The position numbers were made by a program, and so were the translations under genes. Of a stretch of DNA of 64,000 bases, positions 6,014 to 37,600 are shown in pieces. The notes beneath the pieces were generated by a model, which was not told the origin of the DNA, ran no database searches, and saw only the letters and a program-made list of their open reading frames with translations. This DNA comes from Nocardioides humi (lineage in GTDB: Bacteria; Actinomycetota; Actinomycetes; Propionibacteriales; Nocardioidaceae), in assembly GCF_006494775.1 (NCBI RefSeq), contig NZ_CP041146.1, forward strand, positions 4,278,001-4,342,000. Reading direction: 5' to 3'. Position 1 is the first letter of the stretch. The number at the start of each line of letters is the position of its first letter.

Positions 6014-6997
6014 TCAGCCCTGCGCGCGCTTGACCTGGTCGTAGACCCAGGCGTAGGTCTTGGCGAGCCCGTCGGCGAGGCTGATCGACGGCTCCCAGCC
6101 GAAGACCTCGTTGATCATCGTGTTGTCGGAGTTGCGGCCCCGCACGCCCTGCGGCGCGGAGAGGTCGTACTTCCGCTCGCACTTGATGCCGGCGATCTCC
6201 TCGACGATCGAGTAGAGCTGGTTGATCGACACCAGCTCGGCGGAGCCCAGGTTGATCGGGTCCTCCAGGTCGCTGGCCAGGATCATCTGCGAGCCCTTGA
6301 CGCAGTCGTCGATGTACATGAACGACCGGGTCTGCTCGCCGTCGCCCCAGATCTCGAGCTCGTGCCTGCCGGAGATGACCGCCTCCGCGATCTTGCGGCA
6401 CACCGCCGCCGGCGCCTTCTCACGGCCGCCCGTCCAGGTGCCCTCCGGGCCGTAGACGTTGTGGTAGCGCGCCACCCGCGTGGTCAGGCCGAAGTCCTCC
6501 CGGAAGTGGCGGGCCATCCGCTCGGTGAAGAGCTTCTCCCAGCCGTAGCCGTCCTCCGGCATCGCCGGGTAGGCGTCGGACTCCTTGAGCGCCGTGACCG
6601 AGGTGTCGGTCTGCTTGTCGGCCGCGTAGACGCAGGCCGAGGAGGAGTAGAAGTAGCGCTCGACGTCGTACTTGTCCGCCGCCTGGAGCATGTGGGTGCT
6701 GGTCAGCACCGTCAGCATGCACAGCGCCTTGTTGTTCTCGATGAAGCCCATGCCGCCCATGTCGGCGGCCAGCATGTAGACCTCGCGGGCGCCCTTCGTG
6801 GCGTCCTCCGCGTGCTCGAGCAGGGACAGGTCCGCGACGCCGTTCTGGGCGTCCGGGTGCACCTGGTACCACTCGTCGAGCGGCTTGACGTCCACCGACC
6901 GGACCGTCTTGCCCTGGGCAAGGAGATCGGCGACGAGGTGACCTCCGATGAAACCGCCACCACCGGCAACGAGAACATCAACTGGGCCCGAGTTCAT
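6014..6997 (-). CDS. GDP-mannose 3,5-epimerase-like NAD-dependent epimerase
   Basis: Extended short-chain dehydrogenase of 327 residues. The NAD site is GGGGFIGGHL near the N-terminus. The segment ADMGGMGFIENN is characteristic of GDP-mannose 3,5-epimerase, and YGWEKLFTER supplies the catalytic Tyr-Lys pair. The known reaction gives GDP-L-galactose or GDP-L-gulose from GDP-D-mannose. The ATG at 6997 was chosen because GAGGAG sits five bases upstream; a GTG two codons earlier would touch that site. Two GDP-mannose dehydratase-like genes lie nearby, consistent with rare GDP-linked sugars. Confidence 0.8.
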   Translation of the reverse strand: MNSGPVDVLVAGGGGFIGGHLVADLLAQGKTVRSVDVKPLDEWYQVHPDAQNGVADLSLLEHAEDATKGAREVYMLAADMGGMGFIENNKALCMLTVLTSTHMLQAADKYDVERYFYSSSACVYAADKQTDTSVTALKESDAYPAMPEDGYGWEKLFTERMARHFREDFGLTTRVARYHNVYGPEGTWTGGREKAPAAVCRKIAEAVISGRHELEIWGDGEQTRSFMYIDDCVKGSQMILASDLEDPINLGSAELVSINQLYSIVEEIAGIKCERKYDLSAPQGVRGRNSDNTMINEVFGWEPSISLADGLAKTYAWVYDQVKRAQG

Positions 6998-13199: not shown

Positions 13200-13440
13200 T
13201 CCCCTCGGGCTGGTCTGTTCGGCCTGCGGGTTTGCTCGGTGCGGGGTCTTTGATGACCGATGACGTGGTTGTGGTCCGCTGGGGTTGCGGTGGTTGGCTG
13301 GGGTTTCGCTGCTGGCCGTGGGGTCGCCGATGGTCGTCGGCCTTTGGTTGCGGGAGTCGCGGGATCGCAGCGCTGAGAGTGGGTCTGGACACGCCTGCGT
13401 CCCCGCAACCGTCGGGTGTGCGGGGTGCGGGGCGGGGTGG

Positions 13441-14751
13441 CTACTCGTCGGGTGGCGCTGGGTCGCCGGCGGGGTCGGTCGCGTGGTGGATGGGGTGGGT
13501 GCCTCGGTGGTCGACACGGAAGGTGAAGCCGTTGGGGCTGGTCCAGATGTAGGAGCTGGGCATCACGATGTCGTAGGACCACGCGGAGTGGGTTTTCGCC
13601 CGGTGATGTCGTCTGCACAGGGCCACCTCGTTGCACGGACAGGTAGGCCCGCCCTCGCCGTAGGGTCGGGCGTGGTCGAGGTCGCAGCGGGTGGCTGGTC
13701 TGGTGCAGTGGGGGAACCGACACGTGTGGTCGCGCAGGGCGATGTGGACGCGGTGGCGGTCGGGGATCTCGTAGGAGTCGATCGGGATGTGGTCGGCGAG
13801 GTCGATCACGGGTCGCACGATCACGGTCGAGGCGGTGCCGAGCCACTCGCGGATCTGCTCGCTCGAGATCGGGCGCTGGGTGTCTTCCCATCTGCCGACG
13901 GGGTTCACGCCGGTCAGGGTGGTGTCGGTGATGTGGACGTTCACGATCGCTTTGCGGCCCGGCGAACCCTCCAGATCGAGGGTGAGGTCGGCCCGGGCCA
14001 ACTCGCCGAGCGCGACCGAGCGCCGCACATCGAGCGGAGCGTCGTTGCCGAGGTCCCCGAGGAGGTGGGCGCGGCGGGTGATCGCCTCGTCCAGGTCGTG
14101 TCCGTCAGCGGCGTCGAGCACGGCATCGAGGTGCACGATCCCGTTCGTGTTGCCATGGGTGTCGGGGTCCCCGACCTCCACATAGCGCTGGTCCGCAGCC
14201 GTCGCGCGCTCGGCTTCGGCGCGTTCGGGGTCGAACCGGAGGATCGCCTCGGCGATCAACCGGTCCAACTGCGCCCACCCCACCCCGGAGGCGTGGACGA
14301 GCTGCCGGTCCACGAACCCGGCCGCGTCGGCGTTCAAGGCGTGGGTGAGGTCCGCGATCCGTTCGGCCCGCCACGGCGTCAACCGACCCGCGACCACGGC
14401 GGCATAGACCTGAGGCAGCCGCCAGGCGCATTCGATGACCCGCCCCACATAGGCCCGCCCACCATCGGGCGAGCGTCCCAACACGGCGACGAGTTCCATG
14501 AGCGCGAACTCCGACACCAGCGGCGCCCCGTCCCCCGCGATCGGGACTCCGGTGTCGAGGTACCCGTCGGTGATCGTGGCCGCACCCTCCGGTGTGGTAA
14601 CGACGTGCTCGCTGGCCCAGGTGACGATGGCCTCCCACTCCCTGATCTGGGAGGCCTGGCGTCCTTCGACCTCGGCCCGGATCGCGGACAGCACGCCAGC
14701 CGAGCGACCAGCCGGGCGGGCTGTCGTACGGGGCGCGGTTCCGAGATCCAT
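13441..14751 (-). CDS. DUF222 / HNH endonuclease family protein
   Basis: Protein of 436 residues of the actinobacterial DUF222 plus HNH family (13E12-repeat relatives), usually present in many copies per genome. The DUF222 part covers roughly residues 40-330. The HNH nuclease motif is near the C-terminus: CRFPHCTRPATRCDLDHA, then GGPTCPCNEVALCRRHH. The ATG at 14751 was chosen for GGGAGA nine bases upstream; an in-frame ATG at 14781 is possible. It has no link to polysaccharide synthesis and may mark a recombination or insertion point. The 241 bases before 13441 hold no recognisable gene. Confidence 0.85.
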   Translation of the reverse strand: MDLGTAPRTTARPAGRSAGVLSAIRAEVEGRQASQIREWEAIVTWASEHVVTTPEGAATITDGYLDTGVPIAGDGAPLVSEFALMELVAVLGRSPDGGRAYVGRVIECAWRLPQVYAAVVAGRLTPWRAERIADLTHALNADAAGFVDRQLVHASGVGWAQLDRLIAEAILRFDPERAEAERATAADQRYVEVGDPDTHGNTNGIVHLDAVLDAADGHDLDEAITRRAHLLGDLGNDAPLDVRRSVALGELARADLTLDLEGSPGRKAIVNVHITDTTLTGVNPVGRWEDTQRPISSEQIREWLGTASTVIVRPVIDLADHIPIDSYEIPDRHRVHIALRDHTCRFPHCTRPATRCDLDHARPYGEGGPTCPCNEVALCRRHHRAKTHSAWSYDIVMPSSYIWTSPNGFTFRVDHRGTHPIHHATDPAGDPAPPDE

Positions 14752-14880
14752 GCCAGAGATTCTCCCACCGACCTCCGACATGACGAAACGAGCAGACCCC
14801 GCCTGTGGACAAGCGAAACCCGATCCCGGGGTGTGGACGAACAACGGCTCCGGACCCGACGAATCGCGCCGGCGTCCACC

Positions 14881-15610
14881 TCACCCGAGTGCTGCGACCT
14901 CCCGCCGCACGACGTCCCGGCCGGCGGCGTTGGTGTGGCACCCGTCGTCCGTGAGCTCGTCGCGCATCAGGCCGTCGGGGCCGGACAGCGCGTCGGTCAG
15001 GTCCAGCAGGCGCAGCATCGGCGTGGGGGTGGCGCCGACGGCGACCGTCAGCGCGGAGCGCACCGCGCGGTGGGCGGCGAGGCGCTCGTCGGGGAGCCGG
15101 CGACGGGGAAGGCGTCGTGGTCGTAGCTGTCGAGGCAGGGCGGCACGGGGACCACGATCGTCCCGTCCGCCGTGCCGAGCCGGGCCAGCAGTCCCCGCAC
15201 CCGGTCGACGTACGTCGCCGCGAACCCCACGTCCGCGCCCTCGGCGAGCCGGGGGCGAGGTGGCAGCGGATGTCGATCTCGCCGAAGGAGAAGTACCAGG
15301 CGGCCTCGCGGGCGCCGCGGACGCGGGCGATGAGGCGGGCGGTACGCCGGAGGGTGGGCGGGAAGTCGTCGCGGGCGATGGAGTACATGACGCGCGGGCC
15401 GAGGTGCCAGGTCCAGCGGCGTTCGCCGGTGCGGAGGATGCCCGGCAGGGGGGAGTGCTCGGTGTTGAAGGTGACGGAGTGGGAGTCGCCGACCCAGATC
15501 TCGTCGACCCGGCCGCGGGCGGCGGCCAGGAGCAGGCGGACGAGCGCGAGCCAGCCACGCAGCCGGGCCCGGCGGAGCCGGACGAACGCCCGAAGCCTCG
15601 CGAGGCTCAC
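14881..15610 (-). CDS. SGNH/GDSL-like protein (two frameshifts)
   Basis: About 243 residues once two single-base losses are allowed for, one in the G run 15251-15255 and one near 15090. The N-terminal block has VDEIWVGDSHSVTFN (GDSH in place of GDSx), the middle FSFGEIDIRCHL then VVPVPPCLDSYDHDAF, and the C-terminal DGCHTNAAGRD supplies the Asp-x-x-His pair. Such proteins esterify or de-esterify surface glycans. It starts 7 bases after the stop of another SGNH gene, so the two form an operon. The exact reaction is unknown. Confidence 0.6.
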
Positions 15611-15617
15611 CGGGCGC

Positions 15618-16607
15618 TCATCGGGCCCGCACCGCCTCGGCGATCGCGTCCGCGACCTTGACCCGGCCGGAGTGCGCGAAGTGCTCGGTCGCGTTGAAGC
15701 TGTCCTCGAAGTCCTCGTCCTCGAGGTCGATGTCGAGCATCGGCCCGAGGTCGGCGCAGCCACGGGCGAGCGCCTCGTCCTGGAGCACCTTGTGGGAGCG
15801 GACGTGGGCCTCGAACTCGCCGGGGAAGTGCATCTCGCCGCGCTGCATCGGCGGCCGGGTCCACACGCCGACGGTCGGGACGCCGTACTCCTCGAGGCGG
15901 CGACCGAGGCTGGTGAGGGAGTCCAGCCGCGGGTCGTCGGCGTGCAGCTGCTCGCCGTAGAAGTAGTCGAAGCGCAGCTTCTCCAGCTCGATCGGCCACG
16001 GGGGGAGGCCGGTGCCGACGAGCTGCTGCCGGTACCAGCCGATGGTGCGCGCGCCGTTCCAGCGGCTCTCGACCGGCTGGGCGAGGAAGGCGTCGCGCTC
16101 CTCGTCGGTGGCGAAGGAGCCGCCGCGGCCGACGTACCGGATCCGGCGGTGGGCGCCGGGGACCTTGGCCATCGCGGCGAGCGAGCGGTGGTAGCCGGTG
16201 ATCGGGTCGGCGACGATGTGGGTGGCGGTGGTGGTGCGCAGCGCGAGCGTGAAGACGACCGCCTTCGGGCGCCGGTCCATCGCGGTCAGCAGCCGGGTCG
16301 CCTCGGCGTAGATGCTGGAGCCGAAGCCGGGCCCGGCGAGGGTGACGACATTGCCGAGGCGCTGGCCGAGCATGGCCGGCAGCAGGGTGCGGTCGGTGTC
16401 GCGCAGCGACCAGCACAGCGTGGAGCTGTCGCCGAGGAGCAGAACGTCGACGTCCTCGGTGGCGAGGCGGCGCCGCGCCTGCTCGACCTGCTGGAGGGGT
16501 ACGTCGATCATCCGGCTCCGGAGCCGCCGGATCTTGCTGAGCTGACGCTGCACCCGCACCGAGCCCTGTGCTCGGTGGAGTGCGGAACTGAGGGCCACGG
16601 TGGTCAC
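15618..16607 (-). CDS. SGNH hydrolase-like protein, probable glycan O-acyl-transfer partner
   Basis: Protein of about 329 residues with DVLLLGDSSTLCW (SGNH block I, about residue 45) and TLAGPGFGSSIYAEATRLL after it. A large C-terminal part contains ATEHFAHSGRVKVAD, where a catalytic Asp-His pair would be expected but is not clearly seen. Its build recalls DltD/AlgX-like periplasmic SGNH proteins, yet no signal peptide or membrane segment is evident from the chosen start. The GTG at 16607 is one of several in-frame choices and is uncertain. It is followed directly by a second SGNH gene. Confidence 0.55.
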   Translation of the reverse strand: MTTVALSSALHRAQGSVRVQRQLSKIRRLRSRMIDVPLQQVEQARRRLATEDVDVLLLGDSSTLCWSLRDTDRTLLPAMLGQRLGNVVTLAGPGFGSSIYAEATRLLTAMDRRPKAVVFTLALRTTTATHIVADPITGYHRSLAAMAKVPGAHRRIRYVGRGGSFATDEERDAFLAQPVESRWNGARTIGWYRQQLVGTGLPPWPIELEKLRFDYFYGEQLHADDPRLDSLTSLGRRLEEYGVPTVGVWTRPPMQRGEMHFPGEFEAHVRSHKVLQDEALARGCADLGPMLDIDLEDEDFEDSFNATEHFAHSGRVKVADAIAEAVRAR

Positions 16608-16678: not shown

Positions 16679-16705
16679 GTGCTTCCGCAGCGGCGGCGCG
16701 GGTGA
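16679..16705 (+). CDS. Possible 8-codon upstream ORF coupled to the flippase
   Basis: GTG-initiated mini-ORF encoding MLPQRRRG. Its TGA overlaps the GTG of the flippase (GTGA). A TGACAT-like -10 element lies about nine bases upstream. Coupling through this short, Arg-rich leader is possible, but the ORF is too short to be supported by coding signal. Confidence 0.2.
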   Translation: MLPQRRRG

Positions 16706-18021
16706 CCGCGCAGGTGGGCTCGGCCGGCCGTCGGCTGAGCCTGGTCACGGTCGACCAGATCCTGTCCAGCCTCTCCAACATCGCGGCCCTGATCTGGGTC
16801 GCCCACGCCTTCGACCCCGTGGACTTCGGCCGGTTCAGCCTGGTGGTGATGGTCTACACCGTCGCGCAGGTCGTGTTCCGGAGCCTGATCTCGACCACTG
16901 CACTGGTGCACCCCGAGGACGCCGACACCCGGCCGGGCGCGATCCTCGCCTCGACCGTGGTCCTCGGCGTGGCGTCCGGCGTCCTGTGCGTCGCCGCCGG
17001 CTTCGCGCTGGTCGCGGCCGACAGCGCGCTCGGCGGGCCGATCGTCGTCTTCGGCCTGGCCGTGCCATTCCTCGTCCTCCACGACGTCGGCCGCTATCTC
17101 GCCATCTCGCGGCAGCGGCCGGGAGGCGCGGTGACGCTCGACGCGCTGTGGTTCGTGCTCCTCGCCGTCGGCCTGGTCGGCACCCAGCAGCTCGGTCTCG
17201 ACTCGCTGACCTGGCTGATCGCGGCGTGGACCGGCTCCGGCGTCATCGCGTCGCTGTGGGTCTTCGCCCAGTGCGGCGCCCCGACAGCCGGCGGTCTCGC
17301 GTGGCTGCGCGAGCGCTGGGACTTCTCCTGGCGGTCCATGGTCGGCGGCCTCGCCGCCAGCGGTACGGCGCTGGTGACCGCGTCGCTGATGGCGCTCTTC
17401 AGCAGCCCCATCGCGGTCGCGGCGTTCCGCGCCGCGACCCTGCTCGGCGCGCCCAGCACCGCCGTCCAGCTGGCCGTCGGCACCGCCGCGGCGGCCGACA
17501 TCGCCCGCGAGCGCGACGACCCGCGCGCCGTGTGGCGCCACGTGCGGCGCGCGATCCTGATCGCCACGGTCGTCGCGGTGGTCAACCTGGTCGTGCTCGT
17601 CTTCCTGCCCGACGTCATCGGCCACGCCCTGCTCGGCGAGGCCTGGGACATCGTCGAGCCGCTCATGCTCGCGCTCAGCCTCAAGGTGCTGCTGATGGCG
17701 GCCCAGAGCGGGCTGCGCGCGTCGCTGATCGGCACCCACCGGATCCAGGCGGCGATGGTCACCGACGTCGTCGCGATCGTGCTGGTCGGCGCCTGCATGG
17801 TCGTCGGCGCCGCCTGGGGCGACGCCGAGGGCGCGCTGTGGGCGATGGCGGTCGGCACCGGCGTCTCCACCGTCTGCTGGTGGATCGCGGTGATCTGGAA
17901 GGGTCGCGGGCCGCTGCCGGAGCTGCCGGCCGCGCCCGCCACGGACGAGCGGGGCGAGCACGACGAGCAGGACGAGCCGCCCGTGCCGGTGAAGGTCGCC
18001 CCCGGCCGGCACCGCGCCTAG
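16702..18021 (+). CDS. Polysaccharide flippase (Wzx/MATE-like, MOP superfamily)
   Basis: Membrane protein of 439 residues with about 12 hydrophobic segments, starting TAQVGSAGRRLSLVTVDQIL. The pattern (SLVTVDQILSSLSNIAAL and DPVDFGRFSLVVMVYTVAQVVF at the N-terminus) is that of Wzx-type lipid-linked oligosaccharide flippases. The C-terminal 40 residues are charged and cytoplasmic (TDERGEHDEQDE). The GTG start is inside a possible start-stop overlap with an 8-codon leader. A second, unrelated flippase is at 53545, so the window probably makes two glycans. Confidence 0.8.
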   Translation: MTAQVGSAGRRLSLVTVDQILSSLSNIAALIWVAHAFDPVDFGRFSLVVMVYTVAQVVFRSLISTTALVHPEDADTRPGAILASTVVLGVASGVLCVAAGFALVAADSALGGPIVVFGLAVPFLVLHDVGRYLAISRQRPGGAVTLDALWFVLLAVGLVGTQQLGLDSLTWLIAAWTGSGVIASLWVFAQCGAPTAGGLAWLRERWDFSWRSMVGGLAASGTALVTASLMALFSSPIAVAAFRAATLLGAPSTAVQLAVGTAAAADIARERDDPRAVWRHVRRAILIATVVAVVNLVVLVFLPDVIGHALLGEAWDIVEPLMLALSLKVLLMAAQSGLRASLIGTHRIQAAMVTDVVAIVLVGACMVVGAAWGDAEGALWAMAVGTGVSTVCWWIAVIWKGRGPLPELPAAPATDERGEHDEQDEPPVPVKVAPGRHRA

Positions 18022-18031: not shown

Positions 18032-19396
18032 TCAGCCGCGGACCATCTTCCCGCCCCGGGTGGCGGCGGCGAGGTCGACCTCGTCGACCACCCTGATGCT
18101 GCGCGGCTGCCAGGCGCGCGGCAGATCGGCGCACGCCGTACGGATCCCGTCCTTGACGGCCCTCTCGTCCGCGTCGCCCGCGAGCACCACCTCGACGGCC
18201 ACCACGGCGCCGACCATCGGGTTGCTGCGGCCGTGGACGCGCGCCAGCCGGACCCCGGGCACGGCGCCCACGCGCTCCTCGATCGGGAGCGGGTGCACCT
18301 TCACCCCGCCGACGTTGATCACCTCCGAGGATCTCCCCCGGAAGAGCACCCGGTCGTCGACGACCTCGACCAGGTCGCCGGTCGAGACCCAGCCGTCCAC
18401 CTCCTCCGGGGCGTCGGTGGTGTCGCCGGCGTAGCCGAGCATCCCGGTGCCGGCGCGGACCTGCAGCTCGCCGTCCCGGACGCGCAGCACGGCGTCGGGG
18501 TTCGCGGGGCTCCACAGGCTGTCCGCCGACAGGCCGGGCCGGCCGTCGCGGACCGAGGCGATCGAGCCGAACTCGGTCGACGCGTAGACCTGCGAGATCC
18601 GCGCGGTCGGGAACGCCTCCCGCAGCTCCTCGAGCAGGTCGGGGGAGCTGGCCTCGCCGCCGAGCGTGACCTGGGCGAGCGGCGGGAGCTCCGCCCGGCT
18701 GCTGCGGGCCTCGGCCAGCAGGAAGCGCCAGTACGTCGGCGTCGCGCTCACGCAGGTGAGCTCGTCGCGCAGCAGCGCGGCCAGCCCGTCGCGCGGCTGG
18801 CGCGGGAACGGCGCGACCAGGGTCGCCTGCGCGGCGAGCACGTGCAGCAGCACCTGGATCCCCGCGAACTGCTGGGGCCCGTAGGCGAGCAGCCACCGCT
18901 GCTCGGGCCGCGGCGCGGTCGCGGCGCCGCGCCGGGTCAGCACCGCCCAGTCGTGGCGGGCCGCCTTGGGCAGGCCGGTGGTGCCGGTGGTCCGGATCAT
19001 CAGCGGCTGCGGCCCGTCGTACGACGCGTGCTCGGCCGGGTCGCCGTCGAGCTCGTCGGGCCGGACCACCGTGAGCGCCGGCGGGAGGTCGGTGCGCCGG
19101 GTCACGACCGTGTCGTGGCCCAGGGCGGCGGCCTGCTCGGCGAACTGGGCGGGGTCGAGATCGGGCTGGTACTGGCACGGCTCGCTCCCGGCCGCGGCGG
19201 CGCCGCCGAGCAGGCGCAGGATCCAGGCCGCGTCCGGCTCGAGCACCGCGAACCGGTCGATGCCGCGCGCCCGGAGCCCGGCCGCGACGCGGCGCGCGCC
19301 GTCGTACAGCTCGGCGTAGGTGAGCGTCGTCTCCGGCGTCACCACCGCGACCTGCTCCGGCCGGTCGGCGGCGGCCCTCTCCAGCAACCCGATCAT
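18032..19396 (-). CDS. AMP-dependent acyl-activating enzyme (ANL superfamily ligase)
   Basis: Stand-alone adenylating enzyme of 454 residues. The AMP-binding P-loop is MIRTTGTTGLPKAARH (about residue 145). Further on are QVYASTEFGSIASV (A5), GWVSTGDLVEV (A7), FRGRSSEVINVGGVKVHP (A8) and the C-terminal catalytic Lys in TRGGKMVRG. It would activate a carboxylic acid and pass it to CoA or, more likely here, to the acyl carrier protein at 21515. At 454 residues it is shorter than most fatty-acid CoA ligases. AAGGAG lies nine bases before the ATG. It is divergent from the HHxxxDG acyltransferase. Confidence 0.85.
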   Translation of the reverse strand: MIGLLERAAADRPEQVAVVTPETTLTYAELYDGARRVAAGLRARGIDRFAVLEPDAAWILRLLGGAAAAGSEPCQYQPDLDPAQFAEQAAALGHDTVVTRRTDLPPALTVVRPDELDGDPAEHASYDGPQPLMIRTTGTTGLPKAARHDWAVLTRRGAATAPRPEQRWLLAYGPQQFAGIQVLLHVLAAQATLVAPFPRQPRDGLAALLRDELTCVSATPTYWRFLLAEARSSRAELPPLAQVTLGGEASSPDLLEELREAFPTARISQVYASTEFGSIASVRDGRPGLSADSLWSPANPDAVLRVRDGELQVRAGTGMLGYAGDTTDAPEEVDGWVSTGDLVEVVDDRVLFRGRSSEVINVGGVKVHPLPIEERVGAVPGVRLARVHGRSNPMVGAVVAVEVVLAGDADERAVKDGIRTACADLPRAWQPRSIRVVDEVDLAAATRGGKMVRG

Positions 19397-19516
19397 CGGT
19401 GTCGACTCCTTTCGCCGAAGGTTCGCAGGCGAGTATCGCGCATCCGTCACCCCGGCTCCGTCGGTGGCGTTGACAGGGGGCAGGATCCTCCTGTGTCCCG
19501 AGAGGTTGGAGAGCGC

Positions 19517-20791
19517 GTGGGTGCCCATCGCCCGATGACGGTCGCGGAGAAGTACTACACCTTCCTCGACCGCCGCTGGCCGACGAAGGCCGTCGTCACC
19601 GCCGACCTCGACCGCTGCCTCGACGCCGCCGAGGTCGCCCGCGCCTGGCAGGAGCTGCGTGCCCGCCGGGTCGTCACCCGCGCGGTGGCCACCGAGGAGC
19701 TCACCATCGCCGACCCCGGACCGGACCCCGAGGGCGCGGTCTTCCAGGCGCGCGAGGCCGAGCCCGAGGAGTGGCCGGCGATCGTCGCGGAGCTGTCCGA
19801 CGCGCACGACGACCTCGGCACGCCCGTGCAGTGCTGGTACCTCGCCAGTCCGGCGACGGGGGAGTCCCAGCTGGTCCTGATCGGCCACCACGCCCTCATC
19901 GACGGCCGGATCGGCGTCGCCGAGCTCCAGTGGCTGGTCCGCCTCCTCGACGGCCAGGACGTCCCCGAGCAGCAACAGCTCGCCGTACCCGCCGCGCCGG
20001 TCCCGGCCCACGCCTGGCAGCGGGACCGGGCCGCGATGATCGAGCTGCTGCGCGACCTCAAGGCCCGCACCACGGCGTACGGCGCGCCGGCCCCCGCCGC
20101 GTGGCCCGATCCCGCCGTGCCCCGGCGGTCCCGGATGCGCCAGGGCGCGCTGGAGCCGGACGCCGCCGCGCGCCTGGTCGCCGCCGCTCGCGGCCACGGC
20201 GCCAACGCGTTCTCGGCGGTGGCCGCCGCCGCCCTCGCCTCGGCGGCCGGGGTGCTGGGGGACGGGGGAGCGGAGGGCGCACCGACCACGCTGCAGTTCG
20301 CGGCGCCCGCCGACGTCGCCGCGCCCAGCACGGCGCCGGACCGGGCGCGGGAGATGGCGATCGCCGTCCTCAGCCGGCCCTACCGCGTGGACCCGGCCGA
20401 CGTCTGGGGCCTGGCGAGCGAGGTGCGCTCGACCATCCACGCGGCCCGTGCCCGCGGCGAGGGCGAGCTCTTCTTCCATCTCTCCCGCGTCGAGAAGGTC
20501 GTCGACCTCGACACCGGCCGGGACCTGGTCGCCCGGGCGCTCGCCGCCGGGCCGCCGTGCGTGGCGGTCAGCAACCTCGGCGTCGTCGACCCGGGGAGCG
20601 ACCCGGCGTGGGTGCGCGGCGTCCGGGCCGGCCTCGCGGCGGCGCCGAACCAGGTCGTGTTCCTCACCATCACGGGCTATCGCGGCCGGCTCCTGCAGCT
20701 GCTCTCCAGCGACGACAGCCGCCTCCCGCCGGACCGGCGCGACGCCCTCGTCGCGGGCTACCGGCAGATCCTGGGCGAGCTCACGCGGTGA
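19517..20791 (+). CDS. Condensation-domain-like acyltransferase (PapA/HHxxxDG type)
   Basis: Protein of 424 residues of the condensation/PapA-type acyltransferase fold. The catalytic motif HHxxxDG is intact in LIGHHALIDGRIG (about residue 125). The C-terminal half contains AVSNLGVVDPG, which fits the structural region near the second half of the channel. Such enzymes move an acyl group from a carrier protein or CoA to a hydroxyl or amine. The GTG at 19517 was chosen for nearby GGAGAG; an ATG at 19535 is possible. ANL ligase, ACP and reductase are all adjacent, so acyl transfer to a glycan or glycolipid is a reasonable inference. Confidence 0.75.
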   Translation: MGAHRPMTVAEKYYTFLDRRWPTKAVVTADLDRCLDAAEVARAWQELRARRVVTRAVATEELTIADPGPDPEGAVFQAREAEPEEWPAIVAELSDAHDDLGTPVQCWYLASPATGESQLVLIGHHALIDGRIGVAELQWLVRLLDGQDVPEQQQLAVPAAPVPAHAWQRDRAAMIELLRDLKARTTAYGAPAPAAWPDPAVPRRSRMRQGALEPDAAARLVAAARGHGANAFSAVAAAALASAAGVLGDGGAEGAPTTLQFAAPADVAAPSTAPDRAREMAIAVLSRPYRVDPADVWGLASEVRSTIHAARARGEGELFFHLSRVEKVVDLDTGRDLVARALAAGPPCVAVSNLGVVDPGSDPAWVRGVRAGLAAAPNQVVFLTITGYRGRLLQLLSSDDSRLPPDRRDALVAGYRQILGELTR

Positions 20792-21518
20792 GGCCGCCGT
20801 CGACGACCAGCACCTGACCGGTGATCCAGTCGTTGCGCTCGTCGACGAGGAACTCCACCGCGCGGGCGATGTCCTCGGGCTCGCCGAGCCGCCCGGCCGG
20901 CGTACGACGGACGATCTGGTCGAGCTGCCCGTCGTCGAGGCCGTGGCTCATCTCGGTCTTCAGGTAGCCCGAGGCGATGCTGTTGACGGTGATCCTGCGC
21001 GAGCCCATCTCGCGGGCCAGCCCCCGGGTGAACCCGTCGAGCGCGGCCTTCGTGGCGCCGTAGACGCTGAGGCCGCGGTAGCCGGTCAGGCCGGTGATCG
21101 AGGAGATGTTGACGATCCGGCCGCCGCCATGGGCCAGCATGTTGCGGACGACCTGCTTGGTGACGTGGACGGTCGCCTTCAGGTTGAGGTCGATCACCGT
21201 GTCGGAGTCGTCGTCGCTGAACATCGCGAGGATGCCGTCGCGGGCGACGCCGGCGTTGTTGACGAGCACGTCCACCGACCGCCACTCCGCCAGCACGTCC
21301 TTGACGAACCGCGTCGACTGCTCGCGGTCGGCCAGGTCGGCCTTGCGGAACAGGAACCGGTCGCCGTACGCCGGATCCGCCTGCCAGGCGCGAACCGCGT
21401 CGGTCTCGCTGCGGGCGCAGGTGGCGACCCGGTCGCCGGCGTCGAGGAAGTGCTGGACGATGCCCTCGCCCAGGCCCCGGCTGCCGCCGGTGACGACGAC
21501 CGTGCGGGGTGCGGTCAT
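20781..21518 (-). CDS. 3-oxoacyl-ACP reductase-like SDR (FabG-like)
   Basis: Classical short-chain dehydrogenase of 245 residues. The NADPH site is VVTGGSRGLGEGI, NNAG appears as LVNNAGVARDG, the catalytic Ser-Tyr-Lys set is ISSITG then YGATKAALDGF, and ITGQVLVVDGGLTA is at the C-terminus. The family reduces 3-oxoacyl-ACP to 3-hydroxyacyl-ACP. Its start overlaps the stop of the ACP gene (ATGA), which strongly couples the two. Its 3' end overlaps the 3' end of the acyltransferase on the other strand by 11 bases. Confidence 0.85.
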   Translation of the reverse strand: MTAPRTVVVTGGSRGLGEGIVQHFLDAGDRVATCARSETDAVRAWQADPAYGDRFLFRKADLADREQSTRFVKDVLAEWRSVDVLVNNAGVARDGILAMFSDDDSDTVIDLNLKATVHVTKQVVRNMLAHGGGRIVNISSITGLTGYRGLSVYGATKAALDGFTRGLAREMGSRRITVNSIASGYLKTEMSHGLDDGQLDQIVRRTPAGRLGEPEDIARAVEFLVDERNDWITGQVLVVDGGLTA

Positions 21519-21772
21519 GCGGACGAGGCGGTCGCGTCGGCGTAGAACGCCACGATGTCCGCGACCGTCTCGGGCAGCAGCCCGGCGCCGAAGGGGTCGG
21601 TGCCGAACTCGTCCTCGAGGATGGCCGACAGCTCGGCGGTCTCGAGGGAGTCCAGCCCGAGGCCGTCGTCGCCGTGGAGCGTCGCGCCGAGGGAGACCGC
21701 GGTCTCCTCGCGGTCCGAGCGCTCCAGCAGCTCGGTGACGATCGTGACGATCCTGGGTTCGATCTCGTTCAT
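21515..21772 (-). CDS. Acyl carrier protein
   Basis: Acidic carrier protein of 85 residues. The phosphopantetheine attachment serine is in GLGLDSLETAELS (about residue 42). The dedicated ACP is coupled to a FabG-like reductase and lies close to an ANL ligase and a condensation-type acyltransferase. That marks a specialised acyl pathway and not bulk fatty-acid synthesis, since no ketosynthase is present here. The ATG is 8 bases after the stop of the beta-helix acyltransferase upstream on the same strand. Confidence 0.88.
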   Translation of the reverse strand: MNEIEPRIVTIVTELLERSDREETAVSLGATLHGDDGLGLDSLETAELSAILEDEFGTDPFGAGLLPETVADIVAFYADATASSA

Positions 21773-21780
21773 TCCGACCT

Positions 21781-22482
21781 CTACTCAGATGGGGGGTTCG
21801 GAGGGGCAACGACGTCACGGGGTCCTTGGTAACGGGCCCGGTCGTACACATGCCGTGGAATGTCGATCGGCGCGAGCCTGCGGGCGGGCACGCCGCCGTG
21901 CAGGTGGGCCCCCTTCGCCTCCTGCCCGGTCCACGTCGTCGAGCCGGCGGCGATCAGCGCGCCCTCGCCGACCACGGTGCCGGGCAGCATCGTGCAGGAC
22001 GTCGCCACGACCGCACGGTCGCCGATCGTGACCGGGTCGAGGATGACGCCGCCGTTGGTGGGGTCGAACGCGTGCGAGAGCAGGGTGGACCGGATGCCGG
22101 TGACCCAGGCGTTGTCGCCGAGGATGATCCCGCCGCCGCAGTCGAGGTAGTGCTGGCTGATGATGTGGGAGTCGTCGCCCATCCGCAGCGTGCGCAGGTC
22201 GTCGGTCGGCGTGGCGCCCTTCTCGTAGCCCGAGTCGCCGACGATCTGGTTGAACAGCATGATCCGGCAGCCGATGCCCATCCTCACCAGCCGCAGGTCG
22301 CGGAACAGGTTGAAGTGGTGGATGAGCGAGCCCTCGCCCAGCTCGAACCGGTCGACCCGGCGTACCAGGTTGATGCCGACCACCGCCGTGTCCGGGATCG
22401 CGTGGCCGAGCCTGCGCAGCAGCCGGTTCTTGAGCCTGCTCGGTGGCAGCAGGAAGACAAGGGTCGTCAGGGCCTGGCGCAC
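21781..22482 (-). CDS. Left-handed beta-helix (hexapeptide) acyltransferase
   Basis: Protein of 233 residues with hexapeptide-repeat character: GIGCRIMLFNQIVGD, MGDDSHIISQHYLDCGGGIILGDNAW, VTIGDRAVVATSCTMLPGTVVGEGALIAAGS. It resembles WcaF/LpxA-type O-acyltransferases that acetylate sugars. The GTG at 22482 has minus-strand TAGGCT seven bases upstream and is probably leaderless. It is the first gene of the run to the ACP and reductase, so it may use the same acyl supply or acetyl-CoA. Confidence 0.75.
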   Translation of the reverse strand: MRQALTTLVFLLPPSRLKNRLLRRLGHAIPDTAVVGINLVRRVDRFELGEGSLIHHFNLFRDLRLVRMGIGCRIMLFNQIVGDSGYEKGATPTDDLRTLRMGDDSHIISQHYLDCGGGIILGDNAWVTGIRSTLLSHAFDPTNGGVILDPVTIGDRAVVATSCTMLPGTVVGEGALIAAGSTTWTGQEAKGAHLHGGVPARRLAPIDIPRHVYDRARYQGPRDVVAPPNPPSE

Positions 22483-22517: not shown

Positions 22518-23570
22518 GTGCTTCTCACGCCCCTGGCCCACGGCCGGGTCTCGATGCAGTGCGACCTGTGCATCCCGCCCGTCCTGACCATCGCCAGCCC
22601 CGACTGGCTGCGTCGTACCGGCTGGACGCTCGCCGCCGACGGCGGCCCGGTCGATGCCTGCCCCAACTGCACGGTGCGCGTCGCGCCCCGCCATCGGGTA
22701 CGCCGCGGCGACGCGACGCCGCAGTCGCCCGACCCCGCGCGGCTGCCGAACGTCGTCGTCGTCGGCGCCACGAAGGCCGGCACCACGAGCATGCACAACT
22801 ACCTCGCGGCGCACCCGGAGATCGCGGCGTCGGAGGAGAAGGAGATGCGCTTCTTCACCGACCCCGACTGCCGGGGCTGGGTCGGCGCCTACCAGGAGCG
22901 GTTCGCGCCCGGCACCCGCTACCGGCTGGAGTCGACGCCCTTCTACAGCAAGGCGCCCTGCTATCCGGGCGTCGTCGACCGGATGGCCGACCTGGTGCCG
23001 GACGCGCGGATCGTCTATCTCGTGCGCGATCCCGTCGACCGGATCCTCGCCGAGCACATGGAGATGGTCGCCTGGAACTCCGCCGAGCGCCCGCTGGAGG
23101 AGGAGCTCGCCGATCCGGGGGAGCCGACCAGCCCGCTCGTCGCGTCCAGCCGCTACGCCACCCAGCTGGAGGCCTATCTCGAGCGGTTCGACCGCGACCG
23201 GGTCCTCGTCGTCGACCTCGCCGATCTCGGCGCCGACGTCGACGGGACCATGGGCCGGGTCTTCGACCTCCTCGGCCTCGACCGTCCCGGGCTGTCCGCC
23301 GACGACTGGGGTCGCTACAACACCGCCGAGGAGAAGCGCGCGCTGCCGCCCTGGCTGATGGCGATCCGCCGGGGACCGCTCGTCCGGGCGGTCCGCCGGC
23401 TCCCGGCCGCGCGGCGACTGGTGCACCTCGCGTGGCGTCGTACGGGGGAGCGGATCGAACGGCCGCAGCTGAGTCCCGCCACCGAGGCGGCGCTGCGGGC
23501 CGAGCTGCAGCCGGAGGTCGACCGGCTGCGCGAGCTCACCGGGCAGTCGTTCGCGTCCTGGTCGCTCTGA
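22518..23570 (+). CDS. Sulfotransferase with N-terminal zinc ribbon
   Basis: PAPS-dependent sulfotransferase of 350 residues. The 5'-phosphosulfate loop is VVVGATKAGTTSMHNYL (about residue 76). The 3'-phosphate region is RIVYLVRDPVDRILAEH (about residue 170). Before the catalytic domain are two Cys pairs, CDLC at 15-18 and CPNC at 48-51, which look like a small zinc ribbon and are unusual for this family. It would sulfate a sugar hydroxyl on a surface glycan or glycolipid. CysDN, which make APS, lie at 58388-60573. The start is inferred to be leaderless. Confidence 0.8.
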   Translation: MLLTPLAHGRVSMQCDLCIPPVLTIASPDWLRRTGWTLAADGGPVDACPNCTVRVAPRHRVRRGDATPQSPDPARLPNVVVVGATKAGTTSMHNYLAAHPEIAASEEKEMRFFTDPDCRGWVGAYQERFAPGTRYRLESTPFYSKAPCYPGVVDRMADLVPDARIVYLVRDPVDRILAEHMEMVAWNSAERPLEEELADPGEPTSPLVASSRYATQLEAYLERFDRDRVLVVDLADLGADVDGTMGRVFDLLGLDRPGLSADDWGRYNTAEEKRALPPWLMAIRRGPLVRAVRRLPAARRLVHLAWRRTGERIERPQLSPATEAALRAELQPEVDRLRELTGQSFASWSL

Positions 23571-26818: not shown

Positions 26819-28105
26819 TCAAGCCGCTTTGTTCTGTTGGGTGATGACGCGTTGGAGTGCGCGGTGGGTTTCGGGGTTGTAGGCGAGGTTGTCTTGCCAG
26901 CAGTGCCAGATGATGTGGAGCCAGGCTCGGGCGAGGATGCGTACGGCGTGGGCGTGGTCGTGGCCTCGTGCCCTGGCGCGGTTGTAGTAGTCGGCGGCCC
27001 AGGGGTTGGCGTGTCTGCTGTCGGCGGCGAAGTCGACCACGGCGTCGCGGAGTTGTTTGTCGCAGGACCAGCGGAACCCGACGGCTCGGTGTTTGCCGGA
27101 CTGGCGGGTCGAGGGTGCGGCGCCGGCCAGGCAGGTCAGCGATTCGGGGGTGGGGAATCTGGCTCGGCAGTCGCCGATCTCGGCCAGGAGGCGTGCGGCG
27201 CGGACGCGTCCGGCTTTGGGGAGGCTGGTGAAGATGTGCGCGTCGGTGTGTGCGTCGAGCTGCCGGTCGATCTGGGTCGAGAGGATCTTGATCTGCTCGA
27301 CCAGAGTCAGCAGCAGCGTCACGTAGCTCGCGGTGATCGCAGCCTGGGTGGTGGCGTGGATGCCGGTGGCGCCCCTGGGCGCGTCCAGGAGCCGGGCGTG
27401 CAGCACGGCAGGGTCGGTGCGTCCGGAGTAGCCCTGTTTGGTCAGCCAGCCGCCGAGGCGTTGGGGGGTGAGCCAGTCGGCGCGGTCTTGGGTGTCGAAC
27501 CGGGTCAGGAACGTCAAGGAGATCTCGGAGTCGATGTCGCGGAAGAGGCCGATGGCGCCTGGGAAGACGTTGCGCAGGTGGGCACGGAGCTGGTTGGCGA
27601 CCGCGACGCGGTGTTTGACGAGGTCTTTGCGGGCACGGCAGGCGCGTCGCAGCGCGACCGTGTCGTCGCGGTCGGGGATCAGTGGGCGCAGTCGGGTCCG
27701 GTCGGTGCGCAGGGTGTCGGCCAGGACGTAGGCGTCGAAACGGTCGTCCTTGTTGCCGGCCGATCCGTAGCGGCCGCGCAGGTTCTTGACCTGGTTCGGG
27801 GAGATCACCACCACGCTCAGCCCGGCGGCCAGCAGTGTGTCGATGACGGGTCCGTCGGGTCGTTCGATCGCGACCTCGTCGACGCCGTGACGGCGCAGGA
27901 AGCCGACCAGTTCACGCAGGCCGCTTGCGGTGTGCTCGACCGTCGTGGTGGCGACCTTGCGGCCGCGTCCGTTGACGATGCAGGCGGCGTGGTCGTCACG
28001 GGCCCAGTCGATGCCCGCGGTCACGTCGTTGGGCGCGGTCTCGGGCAGGGTCACAGAACGTTGGCTACTCATGGATTCGGTCGGGGTTTTGCTGGCAGAC
28101 TTCAC
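26819..28105 (-). CDS. IS110 family DEDD transposase/recombinase
   Basis: Full-length transposase of 428 residues. The N-terminal RuvC-like DEDD domain shows AGIDWARDDHAACIV (first Asp), VDEVAIERPDGPV (Glu) and GNKDDRFDAYVLAD (last Asp pair). The C-terminal Tnp domain has FTSLPKAGRVRAARLLAEIGD with the LAGAAPSTRQSGK stretch, where the catalytic Ser is found in this family. The GTG at 28105 has GAGGAGG five bases upstream; the in-frame ATG at 28072 is the alternative. The gene looks intact and potentially active. Confidence 0.9.
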   Translation of the reverse strand: MKSASKTPTESMSSQRSVTLPETAPNDVTAGIDWARDDHAACIVNGRGRKVATTTVEHTASGLRELVGFLRRHGVDEVAIERPDGPVIDTLLAAGLSVVVISPNQVKNLRGRYGSAGNKDDRFDAYVLADTLRTDRTRLRPLIPDRDDTVALRRACRARKDLVKHRVAVANQLRAHLRNVFPGAIGLFRDIDSEISLTFLTRFDTQDRADWLTPQRLGGWLTKQGYSGRTDPAVLHARLLDAPRGATGIHATTQAAITASYVTLLLTLVEQIKILSTQIDRQLDAHTDAHIFTSLPKAGRVRAARLLAEIGDCRARFPTPESLTCLAGAAPSTRQSGKHRAVGFRWSCDKQLRDAVVDFAADSRHANPWAADYYNRARARGHDHAHAVRILARAWLHIIWHCWQDNLAYNPETHRALQRVITQQNKAA

Positions 28106-34609: not shown

Positions 34610-37600
34610 GTGCCCGCACGACCGATGCGCAGGCTCCGGTTGCTGACCTCCGTGGTCGCCGTGACCGTCGCCGCGGGTGGCCTGCTGGCCACACCGAGCC
34701 AGGCTGCACCTCCCGCAGCCCCGACCCTGCTGCCGGACGCCCCGGCAGCCGCGGCCGCCGAACCGGCGCCGAACCCGGACATCCTCGACGTCAGCTTCCC
34801 GGACGGCGTGCCGACCGACGCCGCCCAGTCGCTCGCGCCGATCACCTACGGCACCCCGACCTTCGGCACCGACCCCACGCAGGGCCCGGTCATGACCGTG
34901 GACGGCGTCGACGACGCGGTCGGCTTCCCGTTCGAGGACGAGTGGCCCAAGCTCACCACCGGCGTCAGCGTCGAGTGCGTGTTCCGCGTCGACACCACGA
35001 TGCCGGTGTCCAACGAGAAGGACCTGTGCTCCGACAAGGAGGCCGGCGGCATCTCGATGTACGTCACCGGCGGCAACCTCGGCTTCATGGCCTACGTCGG
35101 CGGCGCCTACCGCAGCGCTCTGACGCCCATCGACGGCAACCGCTGGTACCACGCCGTCGCGACCTGGGACGGCAGCCAGATCCGGCTCTACGTCAACGGC
35201 CAGCTCGCGCAGACCACGGCGGCCAGCGGCGCGCTCACCTTCCCGGTGGCGACCGCGCGGCGCTTCATCGTCGGTGCCGACGCCAGCCCCACCGGGATCG
35301 GCCAGCCGGCTCCGCCGAGCACCTTCGCGGCTTCGGGCGTCTTCTCGCGCGCGGTGTCGGCCGACGAGGTGCGGGCGCTGGCCGCGGAGTGGGACACCAG
35401 CGTCCCGGTCCCGCAGGCCGACGTGCTCGACGTCGACTTCGCCGACGGGACCCCCACCGAGCGGGTCCGCGGCCTCGAGGTGAGGACCTTCGGGAGCCCG
35501 ACCATCGCCCACGACAGCGCCCTCGGCCGTGACGTCGTCACCTTCGACGGCGACGACGCCTACGGCTACGCCCTCACCCCGCACTGGGGCGAGATCAGCA
35601 GCGCGGTGAGCATCGAGTGCACCTTCCGCTACACCGGCGCGCTGCCGCCGTCCGCGGAGGTCGACCTGTGCTCCGGCAAGGAGGCCGGCGGCTACTCGAT
35701 CTACATCAACGACGACAAGGTCGGCCTGATGGCGCACATCGGCGGTGGCTACAAGACCGCGCGCGCCACCATCGTGCCCAACCGCTGGTACCACGTCGTC
35801 GGCGTGTGGAACGGCACCGACATCAAGCTGTACGTCGACGGCGTGCTCGCCGCGACGACGGCCGCCACCGGAGCCCTCACGCTGCCGGCCGCCACCGCCC
35901 GCGCGTGGACGCTCGGCGCGGACTCCTCGCCCAACGCCGGCGCCCAGTTCTACGCCCCGGCCAAGCTGGCGAACGCGCGCATCTACGGCCGGGCGCTGAC
36001 CGACACCGAGATCCGGGCGCTCGACATCGCCGCCTTCGGCGACCACCCGGACGCCGGGGTCGCGCTGAACGGCTCGGTGCCGGCCGCCGGCGACCACCTC
36101 TCCGCGCCGGTCGAGCTCGACCTCGACATCGCGAACGAGGACAACGCCACCGGCTGGACCCACCTGCTCGACGGCGACCCGATCGCCGAGGGCGACCTGG
36201 TCGGCCCCGGCCTGAAGGCCGGCCCGCACACGATCACCGTCACCGCGGTCGACGTGTTCGGCAAGGAGATCGCGCTCGAGATCCCGTTCACCTCCGACGC
36301 CATCCCCACCGGCGGCGGCACCGGCTCCGGCGAGGGCAAGGGCGTCGTCCAGCTCTCCGCCATCGCCACCAGCCCCGACGGCGGCGACGTCTCCACGACC
36401 TTCCGTGAGGCCACCGCCACGGTCGCCGACGGCGGCGTCCAGGGCGTGGTCAAGCAGGTGCCGGCCACCCTCGGGTTCGAGATCGAGGACGAGCAGCCCA
36501 TCCCCGGCCGGCTGGTCCCCGACGACGACAACCTGGAGTCCAGCGCCACCAGCGGCGACCTCCCCGTCCAGCGGTTCGACGTCGAGGTCGGCGAGGCCGT
36601 CACCGGACAGCAGGTCGTCTGGAAGGGCGTCGTCGACCCCGAGCGGTCAGTCACGCTGCGGGCCTGGAACACCGAGACCTCCCGCTGGGTCGAGCTCGCC
36701 ACCGCGCGCGGCGTACGCGACGGCGACACCGTCCTCAACGCCGTGCTGCGCCCGGCGATGGTCGACGACGGCACCGTGCACCTGCTGGTGCTGGGCACCG
36801 ACCCGTTCGCCGACGACCTCGCGCCGCGCGACGAGCGGGCGGCCGAGAGCAAGGACAGCTTCGAGGACCCCGACGACTACGACTTCTCGCTCGCCCACTT
36901 CACCGACACCCAGTACCTCGCCGAGGGCGCCGCGGGCGGCACCTACGACGACTGGGACGGCGTGGTGGAGGACGCCGACCTGATGAAGGCCGAGGAGCAG
37001 GCGATCTGGGCCCGCGCGTACGAGGCGACCACCGAGTGGATCGCCGAGCAGGCCGGTCCCCGCAAGATCGCGTGGGCGGGCCACACCGGCGACGTGATCG
37101 AGAACGACTACTACGACCCGCTCTCCACCGACGGCTCCGGGAACCTGCTGTACCCCGGGCTCGACGAGCAGGTCACCCGGGAGTTCGAGTTCACCTCCGG
37201 TGCCCAGGCGACGCTCGACGCCTCGGGCATCCCCAACCAGGTGATCGCGGGCAACCACGACAACCAGCTCGGCAACGAGACCGGCCCGACCTCGCGGTTC
37301 AACCAGTACTACGGGCCGGACCGGTACTACAGCGCCTCCCAGTCGTGGCCGGCCGGTGCGTCGTACCACGCCTGGGACGAGACGACCGACACCGAGGGTG
37401 AGGTCAGCACCCCGGGCCGGGACAACCAGAACAACTACGTCCTGTTCTCCGCCGGCGGCCTCGACTTCGTCGCCGTCGGGCTGTCGTACGGCGTCACCCA
37501 GGCCGAGGCCGACTGGGCGAGCTCGGTGTTCGCCCGCTACCCCGACCGCAACGGGATCCTGCTGACGCATGCCTACATCGCGCCCTCGACCGCGCCGGAC

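Follow-up and report, generated by a model that had tools for sequence, protein, structure and literature searches.

In Dlt D-alanylation, a stand-alone ANL ligase and a small carrier protein supply the acyl group for envelope glycopolymers. PapA enzymes act in sulfolipid and lipooligosaccharides, among other products, and sulfolipid-1 also uses a sulfotransferase. The mycobacterial PapA pathways pair a ligase, an acyl donor bound to an acyl carrier protein (ACP) and a PapA transferase in the actinobacterial envelope, and their chain comes from large type I polyketide synthases (PKSs) with a built-in ACP. According to the cited account of the PDIM pathway, PapA5 transfers mature mycocerosates to phthiocerol (PMC12370991). 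ACP-tethered acylation of a polysaccharide has already been predicted for the O-polysaccharide of F. psychrophilum, with the R-group genes wfpC-wfpG (PMC6519341). In the passages of that paper dealing with these genes, wfpD encodes a dedicated ACP, wfpF a 3-ketoacyl-ACP reductase, and wfpC and wfpE two ketosynthases thought to build the chain; the product of wfpG, a pglD homologue and left-handed beta-helix (LbH) enzyme, is predicted to take the acyl group off the ACP and place it on a sugar nucleotide. It is also described there that the R-group genes differ between strains with otherwise like loci. The author of an earlier note on the DNA described below did not recognise ACP-tethered acylation of an actinobacterial exopolysaccharide as a described pathway; the F. 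psychrophilum prediction precedes that note.

The window, that is, the whole stretch of Nocardioides humi DNA that was analysed (64,000 nucleotides), contains five genes side by side at 18032-22482 within a glycan locus, all of which had been recognised in the earlier note. Genes were defined from open reading frames and a codon-usage call. The five encode an intact, stand-alone ANL (AMP-forming) ligase of 454 aa (LIG, 18032..19396, minus strand; PF00501 102.8 bits, PF13193 26.5 bits), a PapA5-like condensation-superfamily acyltransferase of 418 aa (COND, 19535..20791, plus strand), a FabG-like ketoreductase of 245 aa (SDR, 20781..21518, minus strand; PF13561 197 bits), a dedicated ACP of 85 aa (21515..21772, minus strand) and an LbH (hexapeptide) acyltransferase of 233 aa (LBH, 21781..22482, minus strand; PF00132 Hexapep 28 bits). 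The reported overlap of the ACP and SDR genes was confirmed and amounts to 4 bp. COND lies on the strand opposite to the other four genes, a point on which the note was silent, and SDR overlaps its end by 11 bp. One flank is indeed formed by a sulfotransferase gene (22554..23570, plus strand; PF13469 80.8 bits), which adjoins LBH in the closest relatives (L026-L036) as well. The gene on the other side (16702..18021, plus strand) may be called Wzx/flippase-like by its hydrophobic sequence, judged by eye, and by its place in related loci; no Pfam match supported this label.

LIG is predicted to activate a carboxylic acid and to load it onto the ACP. The TTG[TS]TG motif and K450 were conserved across the aligned relatives of LIG, and its best PDB matches were 4-chlorobenzoyl-CoA ligase (73.7 bits), MenE (61.4 bits) and FadD10 (59.1 bits). 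The exosortase-A-associated acyl ligase family (TIGR03098) is likewise AMP-forming, but LIG scored 69 bits against it, far under the family cut-off of 592. The ACP passed the PF00550 cut-off of 20.8 bits with 21.5 bits. Its serine motif was found intact, as the note had read it, with Ser42 in GLDSLE; this serine was invariant in 14/14 aligned sequences, and a DS[LMIV] motif was present in all 52 genes labelled ACP in related loci. Similarity to the ACP of fatty acid synthesis from the same genome was distant (E 0.058).

SDR scored 229.7 bits against TIGR01830, under the cut-off of 297.75, and a Y-x-x-[TSA]-K motif occurred in 51/51 related SDR genes. H111 and H137 of LBH were invariant in 24 aligned sequences (alignment A4, made without the LBH of L043). 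Among the matches listed (120 of 224), LBH relatives were 51-94% identical, and those named belonged to Nocardioidaceae/Propionibacteriales. Naming the acyl donor of LBH from homology was set aside, as the matches mainly cover the repeats; LBH could use acetyl-CoA because the repeat domain resembles acetyltransferases. It is nevertheless a candidate acyl-ACP:glycan transferase. Two components are common to the Wfp system, as far as the cited passages describe it, and the N. humi module: a dedicated ACP with the phosphopantetheine serine in a glycan locus and a ketoacyl-ACP reductase (here the predicted FabG-like SDR with Y-x-x-x-K). An LbH protein is present as well and may take its acyl group from the ACP.

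The two systems differ in that the Wfp genes described include two ketosynthases, whereas the N. humi module has a ligase. In accordance with the earlier note, no ketosynthase was found in the window, nor was one found in 62 related loci, when FabH and FabF pieces from the same genome were used as queries (E 1e-3). In a whole-genome search with PF00109, the single strong match (187 bits) belonged to the fatty-acid operon, some 1.2 Mb away; a further 12 matches were partial and weaker (21-36 bits), and all of them lay outside the window. There was no multidomain NRPS gene nearby; the sole large gene of the window (34625-39097) encodes a secreted-type protein of 1490 aa with laminin-G and Ig-like domains. 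The association with PKS genes that the note had named as counter-evidence was not observed, the neighbours being mostly glycan genes without ketosynthases. With no ketosynthase found in these loci, a PKS fragment was ruled out.

Orthologues of LIG were found in 54 of 294 family genomes (E 1e-60). Locus maps were drawn after removal of weak matches (LIG and SDR below 200 bits, MTx below 120, COND below 60), and a second LIG fragment of G153 was left out. In the 55 LIG loci examined, ACP was present in 52, SDR in 52 and both in 51, and an LbH acyltransferase in 47; these four genes recurred together across genera, in counts uncorrected for phylogeny. The LbH gene was undetected in the other eight loci, and four of these genomes have one elsewhere (L078, L083, L098, L130). 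Two of the three LIG loci without ACP could be accounted for: in G205, an SDR-ACP-MTx-LBH set, MTx being a methyltransferase, lies apart from the ligase in a glycan locus on the same contig (L130), and the set of G160 is split between two contigs (L097/L098). In G127, no SDR gene was found close to the set (L083), and a further MTx-LIG pair of this genome (L084) lacks ACP.

Gene order was also retained, although some gap and overlap lengths in the following counts may be off, the starts coming from our own codon-usage caller. On one strand, LIG and SDR were neighbours in 32 loci (overlapping in 27, in 24 of these by exactly 4 bp), ACP and LIG in 30 related loci (within 60 bp in 25), ACP and SDR in 18, LBH and ACP in 17, and SAT and MTx in 12 (overlapping by 4 bp in 11). 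Locus L128, from another actinobacterial family, keeps the order LBH-MTx-ACP-LIG-SDR, which places LBH and MTx within the ACP unit. Chance clustering was ruled out by the recurrence across related genomes. Judged by gene order and co-occurrence, the five genes are a conserved, tightly coupled unit.

The condensation enzyme alternates with a methyltransferase or a CatB/Vat-like acetyltransferase, and this exchange is a new observation. Among the 55 LIG loci, COND was present in 17 and MTx in 28, no locus had both, and 10 had neither; by genome (54 in all), the corresponding numbers were 19, 29, 0 and 6. The 240 genomes without LIG contained no MTx (cut-off E 1e-50) and no strong COND match at the thresholds used. 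A weak COND match in G265 (E 6.6e-4), where L079 had no module genes, was dropped, with 19 of 20 COND matches kept; the COND query was a single sequence, by which very divergent COND proteins may be missed. Six loci, all of them among the 10 with neither COND nor MTx, contained a CatB/Vat-like gene (290 bits or more), which was always placed between an LbH gene of SAT type and ACP. The proteins scored 110-113 bits against CatB, far under the cut-off of 350. G098 has COND and a CatB-like gene at two loci, and no cap gene was found in G213 (L088).

On the LIG tree (31 of 53 inner branches well supported), the distribution of MTx requires 13 changes, of which well-supported branches force at least 8, and that of COND requires 6, of which they force at least 3. 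These counts are inflated because some loci scored as having no cap gene have it elsewhere (L077, L087, L097). As reconstructed, the ligase tree needs repeated switches of the putative cap enzyme. O-Methylation by MTx is favoured by its best PDB matches, namely 3bus (178.5 bits; titled Methyltransferase, and which we take to be RebM), D-glucose O-methyltransferase 6uv6 (157 bits) and MitM (151 bits). It is not certain, because MTx also matched cyclopropane-fatty-acid synthases (PF02353, 77-81 bits, the best or nearly best of three Pfams tested) and sarcosine/dimethylglycine N-methyltransferases (70-86 bits).

The HHxxxDG motif noted earlier in COND, a distant PapA5 relative, is present as HHALIDG and is common to COND and the PapA (PF16911) acyltransferases. 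The window COND scored 24.1 bits against PF16911 (PapA_C), below the cut-off of 30. A profile built from 18 COND sequences, in all of which H119, D123 and G124 were invariant, matched phthiocerol dimycocerosyl transferase 8s6l (56.4 bits) and PapA5 1q9j (30.3 bits). A precomputed PF16911 or related C-domain entry was found for 41 of 43 COND relatives among the matches listed and for the window COND there was none. In five close loci, the COND proteins were 79-91% identical to each other and 56-57% identical to the window COND; for the remaining genes of the window's module, and for its flippase-like gene, identity to the counterparts in these loci was 79-96%. The window COND looks like an exchanged allele.

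These data suggest that the module is a self-contained acyl-ACP pathway which works without a ketosynthase and decorates a surface glycan, a reading to which we assign a probability of about 0.5. LIG would activate an acid, which would be loaded onto the dedicated ACP, and SDR would reduce a keto group on the bound chain to a hydroxyl. The exchangeable enzyme would then cap a hydroxyl, possibly the one made by SDR, with an acyl ester by COND in N. humi and by the methyltransferase or acetyltransferase in relatives. Before export, LBH, and probably not COND, would take the finished acyl group off the ACP and join it to a sugar in the repeat unit. A broader form is somewhat more tentative: glycan acylation in actinobacteria may be combinatorial, the constant ACP-ligase-reductase core providing hydroxyacyl-ACP, a swapped plug-in adding the O-cap (ester, methyl ether or acetate) and the LbH enzyme installing the product on the exopolysaccharide, with surface variants arising by enzyme and allele swapping.

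The earlier note had counted the condensation-type enzyme as part of the set that could transfer the acyl chain. This enzyme is one of three alternatives and absent from 38 of the 55 LIG loci; its role as an essential module transferase was thereby ruled out, and something else must offload the ACP in those 38 loci. The LbH acyltransferase is a more constant candidate for transfer. It is still conceivable, if unlikely, that where present COND moves the acyl group made by LIG and SDR from the ACP to the glycan, and that LBH, MTx and the CatB-like enzyme are ordinary sugar acetyl- and methyltransferases varying with the polysaccharide. The match of COND to PapA5 fits this, since PapA enzymes act so with PKS-bound chains, as do the D-glucose O-methyltransferase among the closest solved relatives of MTx and the further LbH acetyltransferases that these glycan loci hold. 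However, every one of the 29 genomes with MTx also has LIG, and MTx turned up in 0/240 genomes lacking LIG, unlike a general sugar methyltransferase. In L128, where a weak Wzz-like match (57 bits) is all that lies nearby, MTx and LBH stay with ACP-LIG-SDR.

The tie to glycan genes proposed in the note stood for most loci: 48 of the 55 LIG loci had one or more glycan genes from the query set, 44 had two or more, and seven had none. Only genes from the window itself, plus one flippase, served as queries, so these are undercounts. Strict dedication to glycans was ruled out by loci that carry the unit, whole or nearly so, without being recognisable as glycan loci, namely three of the 55 (L037, L080, L103) and two further ones (L128, L129). 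Such units would suit the production of a free or lipid-linked acyl product (a signal, glycolipid or other lipid), with glycan loci serving mainly as variable islands. We consider this improbable, given that the 48 loci comprise several architectures, that L104, counted as glycan-less, carries FkbM-type and other genes typical of sister loci, and that the ACP-SDR-MTx-LBH set of G205 remains in a glycan locus though its ligase is apart. In a Dlt-like route, LIG would charge the ACP with an amino or hydroxy acid, which would then cross the membrane and be attached to the glycan on the outer side by an SGNH protein. Such a route would agree with the ligase, the ACP and the SGNH/GDSL-like neighbours, and D-alanine-poly(phosphoribitol) ligases are among the weak matches of LIG (29.5 bits). 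It appears very improbable, as LIG resembles aryl/acyl ligases (73.7 bits) more closely than DltA and no MBOAT (DltB) domain was found among the window proteins scanned, a subset of its genes. To our knowledge, Dlt needs no ketoreductase or methyltransferase; the module has a ketoreductase and exchangeable modifying enzymes.

The preferred pathway, read from sequence, would be of a known kind, ACP-based polysaccharide acylation, and new as a ketosynthase-free, ligase-fed variant with an exchanged cap enzyme. In a limited search of open-licence literature, no description of this exact pathway was found, including for a Gram-positive family such as Nocardioidaceae. The Wfp system is predicted to N-acylate an amino sugar of Gram-negative LPS, and the cited passages name no PapA, methyltransferase or CatB-type cap; with regard to an amino-sugar acceptor, no aminotransferase domain was found among the window proteins scanned, again part of the window genes. 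Unlike the mycobacterial PapA systems, the N. humi module has a free ACP and no PKS, and its PapA-like enzyme alternates with a methyltransferase. If the proposal is true, a Gram-positive family would have an acyl-ACP route to decorated polysaccharides without a dedicated ketosynthase and with a cap swapped in evolution. Since related bacteria swap one step for a different enzyme, the module may serve cell-surface variation. This raises the questions of whether glycan decoration draws on dedicated ACPs that ANL ligases supply and whether the cell surface changes when the cap is swapped; by comparing the glycans of close relatives, three enzyme classes could be placed on one chemical step.

The two SGNH/GDSL-like neighbours, SGNH1 and SGNH2 (14881..16511, minus strand), were labelled by eye and had no Pfam match in the window, where SGNH1 is apparently frame-disrupted. 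They are possible esterase or transferase partners of the module; for comparison, a protein of the related locus L106 matched PF13472 at 34.6 bits.

The window spans C1:4278001-4342000 of a single-contig genome of 6.22 Mb. Gene calling by codon usage found all five genes of the set reported in the earlier note to be intact and correctly placed: an ANL ligase (LIG, 18032-19396, minus strand), a PapA5-like condensation-type acyltransferase (COND, 19535-20791, plus strand), a FabG-like reductase (SDR, 20781-21518, minus strand), an ACP (21515-21772, minus strand) and a left-handed beta-helix (LbH) acyltransferase (LBH, 21781-22482, minus strand). According to the gene call and Pfam, the set sits inside a glycan locus that also encodes a sugar transferase (PF02397, 117.6 bits), GT4s, GDP-mannose dehydratase-family proteins, an epimerase, FkbM-type and TylF-type methyltransferases, a flippase-like protein, a sulfotransferase, further GTs, Wzz/kinase and DUF4012 proteins and, at 997-2370, a Wzy-like protein scoring 27.6 bits, under the Pfam cut-off. 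The ACP of the module showed only distant similarity to the fatty-acid ACP of the same genome (BLASTP E 0.058).

LIG orthologues were found in 54 of 294 sampled genomes of the family, the window's genome counted (LIG profile A3, E 1e-60). The comparison set of 55 LIG loci comprised those of the 53 other LIG genomes, a second LIG locus of genome G127 (L084) and L080, a locus from another family. The co-occurrence of the module genes with each other was borne out: ACP and SDR were each present in 52 of the 55 loci and both in 51, and an LbH acyltransferase, either LBH or a serine-acetyltransferase-like type (SAT), in 47. When the window genes were used as tblastn queries, all five were found together in 15 of 19 loci encoding a COND relative. 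The proposed glycan neighbourhood applied to most loci, at least one glycan query gene being present in 48 of the 55 and at least two in 44, and seven loci had none of the query genes (L037, L080, L084, L087, L097, L103 and L104). Among these seven, L097 sits on a 6.8-kb contig end, the ligase of L087 stands alone, with its partners in glycan locus L130 on the same contig, and L104 contains FkbM-type genes and others known from its sister glycan loci. G205 is the one genome noticed in which a ligase is apart from its set on a single contig: about 55 kb separate the L087 ligase from the SDR, ACP, methyltransferase (MTx, see below) and LBH genes of L130.

The condensation-type enzyme, one of the five in the set, proved not to be constant. 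COND was present in only 17 of the 55 LIG loci; 28 encoded a methyltransferase (MTx) in its place, 10 neither and none both (one-sided Fisher P = 1.2e-7, a value that ignores phylogeny). Among the 294 genomes, MTx was found in 29 and COND in 19, with one further weak COND match left out; all 48 carried LIG and none had both (Fisher P = 9.6e-10, likewise ignoring phylogeny), and six of the 54 LIG genomes had neither. A CatB/Vat-like acetyltransferase was encoded in six of the 10 loci lacking COND and MTx (L082, L092, L093, L094, L103 and L106). For three of the other four, the genome has a cap gene elsewhere (COND at L039 for L077, MTx in L130 for L087 and MTx on another contig, L098, for L097), and in L088 no COND, MTx or CatB-like gene was found. 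Genome G098 carried COND at L038 and a CatB-like gene at L103, in separate loci. Considering these counts, three families of enzymes, here called caps, alternate beside a constant ACP pathway; the best-known members of each family act on hydroxyls.

Cap labels were mixed on a tree of 54 ligases and two outgroups, in which 31 of 53 inner branches were well supported. The MTx label requires 13 changes on this tree, at least eight of them being forced by well-supported branches, and the COND label six, at least three being forced; the counts are inflated because the labels describe the locus, not the genome, and some loci labelled as having no cap have one elsewhere in the genome. A well-supported trio (97/89) joined L040 and L041, which encode COND, with L075, which encodes MTx. 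Compared with shuffled labels, the real ones were more clustered: a count as low was reached in 2 and 0 of 500 shuffles.

The best PDB match of the MTx profile was 3bus (178.5 bits), listed as Methyltransferase and presumably RebM, followed by D-glucose O-methyltransferase 6uv6 (157 bits) and MitM (151 bits). MTx is likely an O-methyltransferase, but this is not certain because it also matches families of cyclopropane-fatty-acid synthases (77-81 bits for PF02353) and, at 70-86 bits, N-methyltransferases. The CatB/Vat-like genes scored at least 290 bits to two query sequences, the runner-up anywhere scoring 110 bits, and lay between the SAT-type LbH gene and ACP in all six loci; against the CatB family, the protein scored 110-113 bits, beneath the family cut-off.

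LIG and SDR were adjacent in 32 loci and overlapped in 27 of them, in 24 by exactly 4 bp; ACP and LIG were adjacent in 30 loci, and SAT and MTx overlapped by 4 bp in 11 of 12 neighbour pairs. The DS[LMIV] motif was present in all 52 genes labelled ACP and the Y-x-x-x-K motif in all 51 SDRs, and H111 and H137 were invariant among 24 aligned LBH sequences.

LIG, which resembles aryl and acyl ligases, would activate an acid and then load the ACP, as the adjacency of their genes suggests. The absence of a ketosynthase from the set was confirmed, none being found in the window or in 62 related loci; therefore, a keto group must either be present in the acid or be supplied by primary metabolism. Reduction by SDR would yield a hydroxyl, and each cap enzyme would modify a hydroxyl after this step. 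The simplest reading is that the capped hydroxyl is one on the ACP-bound chain, since the family search detected MTx and COND in LIG genomes only and since one cap accompanies the ACP unit outside glycan loci, where L037, L080, L103, L128 and L129 each keep one of the three. PapA5 transfers PKS-made mycocerosates in PDIM, according to PMC12370991. Alternatively, COND itself could be the transferase; however, the 38 loci without COND would then need a different enzyme. The best candidate for transfer of the acyl group to a sugar is the LbH enzyme, because no other acyltransferase of the set is as common, because it is encoded first in L128, a locus from another family with the order LBH-MTx-ACP-LIG-SDR, and because an LbH-type enzyme is the predicted ACP-to-sugar transferase for a Flavobacterium O-polysaccharide (PMC6519341). 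Substrate and acceptor, like the cap site and the loading of the ACP, are predictions.

ACP-linked polysaccharide acylation has already been predicted in F. psychrophilum, where ketosynthases are involved (PMC6519341), whereas ligase loading without a ketosynthase is proposed here. As far as the literature searched shows, such loading is new, and so are a cap that can be exchanged and the setting in actinobacterial glycan loci.

The COND of the window was 56-57% identical to those of L026-L030, which were 79-91% identical to one another; the identities of the window to these loci were 79-90% for LIG, 89-93% for SDR, 92-96% for LBH and 82-85% for the flippase-like gene. The COND of the window looks like an exchanged allele: its nearest relatives elsewhere among the matches listed, P0139 and P0140, were 70-71% identical, which favours, rather than proves, replacement over fast change. 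Named close COND relatives came from Pimelobacter simplex, Nocardioides daeguensis and two MAGs.

At E 1e-60, a search of 394 sampled genomes of the class detected LIG in 11, eight from the same family and three from two other families. COND had matches in 110 of the 394, which were strong and full-length (at least 246 bits) in five; in the remaining 105, the matches listed reached at most 67 bits and were mostly partial. LBH relatives numbered 224 proteins at E 0.001 in a large protein set, and the names among the 120 listed were Nocardioides, Pimelobacter, Marmoricola and Propionibacteriales.

Several other features of the window were observed. The gene at 6014-6994 (minus strand; Epimerase, 100 bits in Pfam), which we take to be GDP-mannose 3,5-epimerase-like, has an intact N-terminal GGGGFIGG and homologues with 71-93% identity in several module loci; it perhaps serves an L-galactose- or L-gulose-type sugar. 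An HNH/DUF222-like ORF, labelled by eye and with no Pfam match, lies between the FkbM-type gene and the SGNH/GDSL-like gene SGNH1 (13200-14880). A GIY-YIG-like ORF, also labelled by eye, occupied the matching spot in L027 (14983-15309), and L026 had neither, so this interval is perhaps a recurrent insertion site for nuclease-like genes. SGNH1 itself (14881-15558, minus strand) looks frame-disrupted in the window, being called as two short pieces, and is a single open gene of 233-247 aa in L026-L030. An IS110-family transposase gene with weaker codon bias than its neighbours lies amid glycosyltransferase genes at 26819-28054 (minus strand). A gene between two glycan loci, at 34625-39097 (plus strand), encodes a secreted-type protein of 1490 aa that contains laminin-G-like and Ig-like domains and may be part of the surface or matrix. 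In the region at 48347-58300, DUF4012 and Wzz/kinase genes form a pair for the second time, and after them comes a stretch of lower GC that encodes a WbsX glycosyltransferase (386 bits), a GT2, a TylF-like methyltransferase and a protein resembling CDP-glycerol glycerophosphotransferase (104 bits); the region is probably a second glycan locus, partly acquired.
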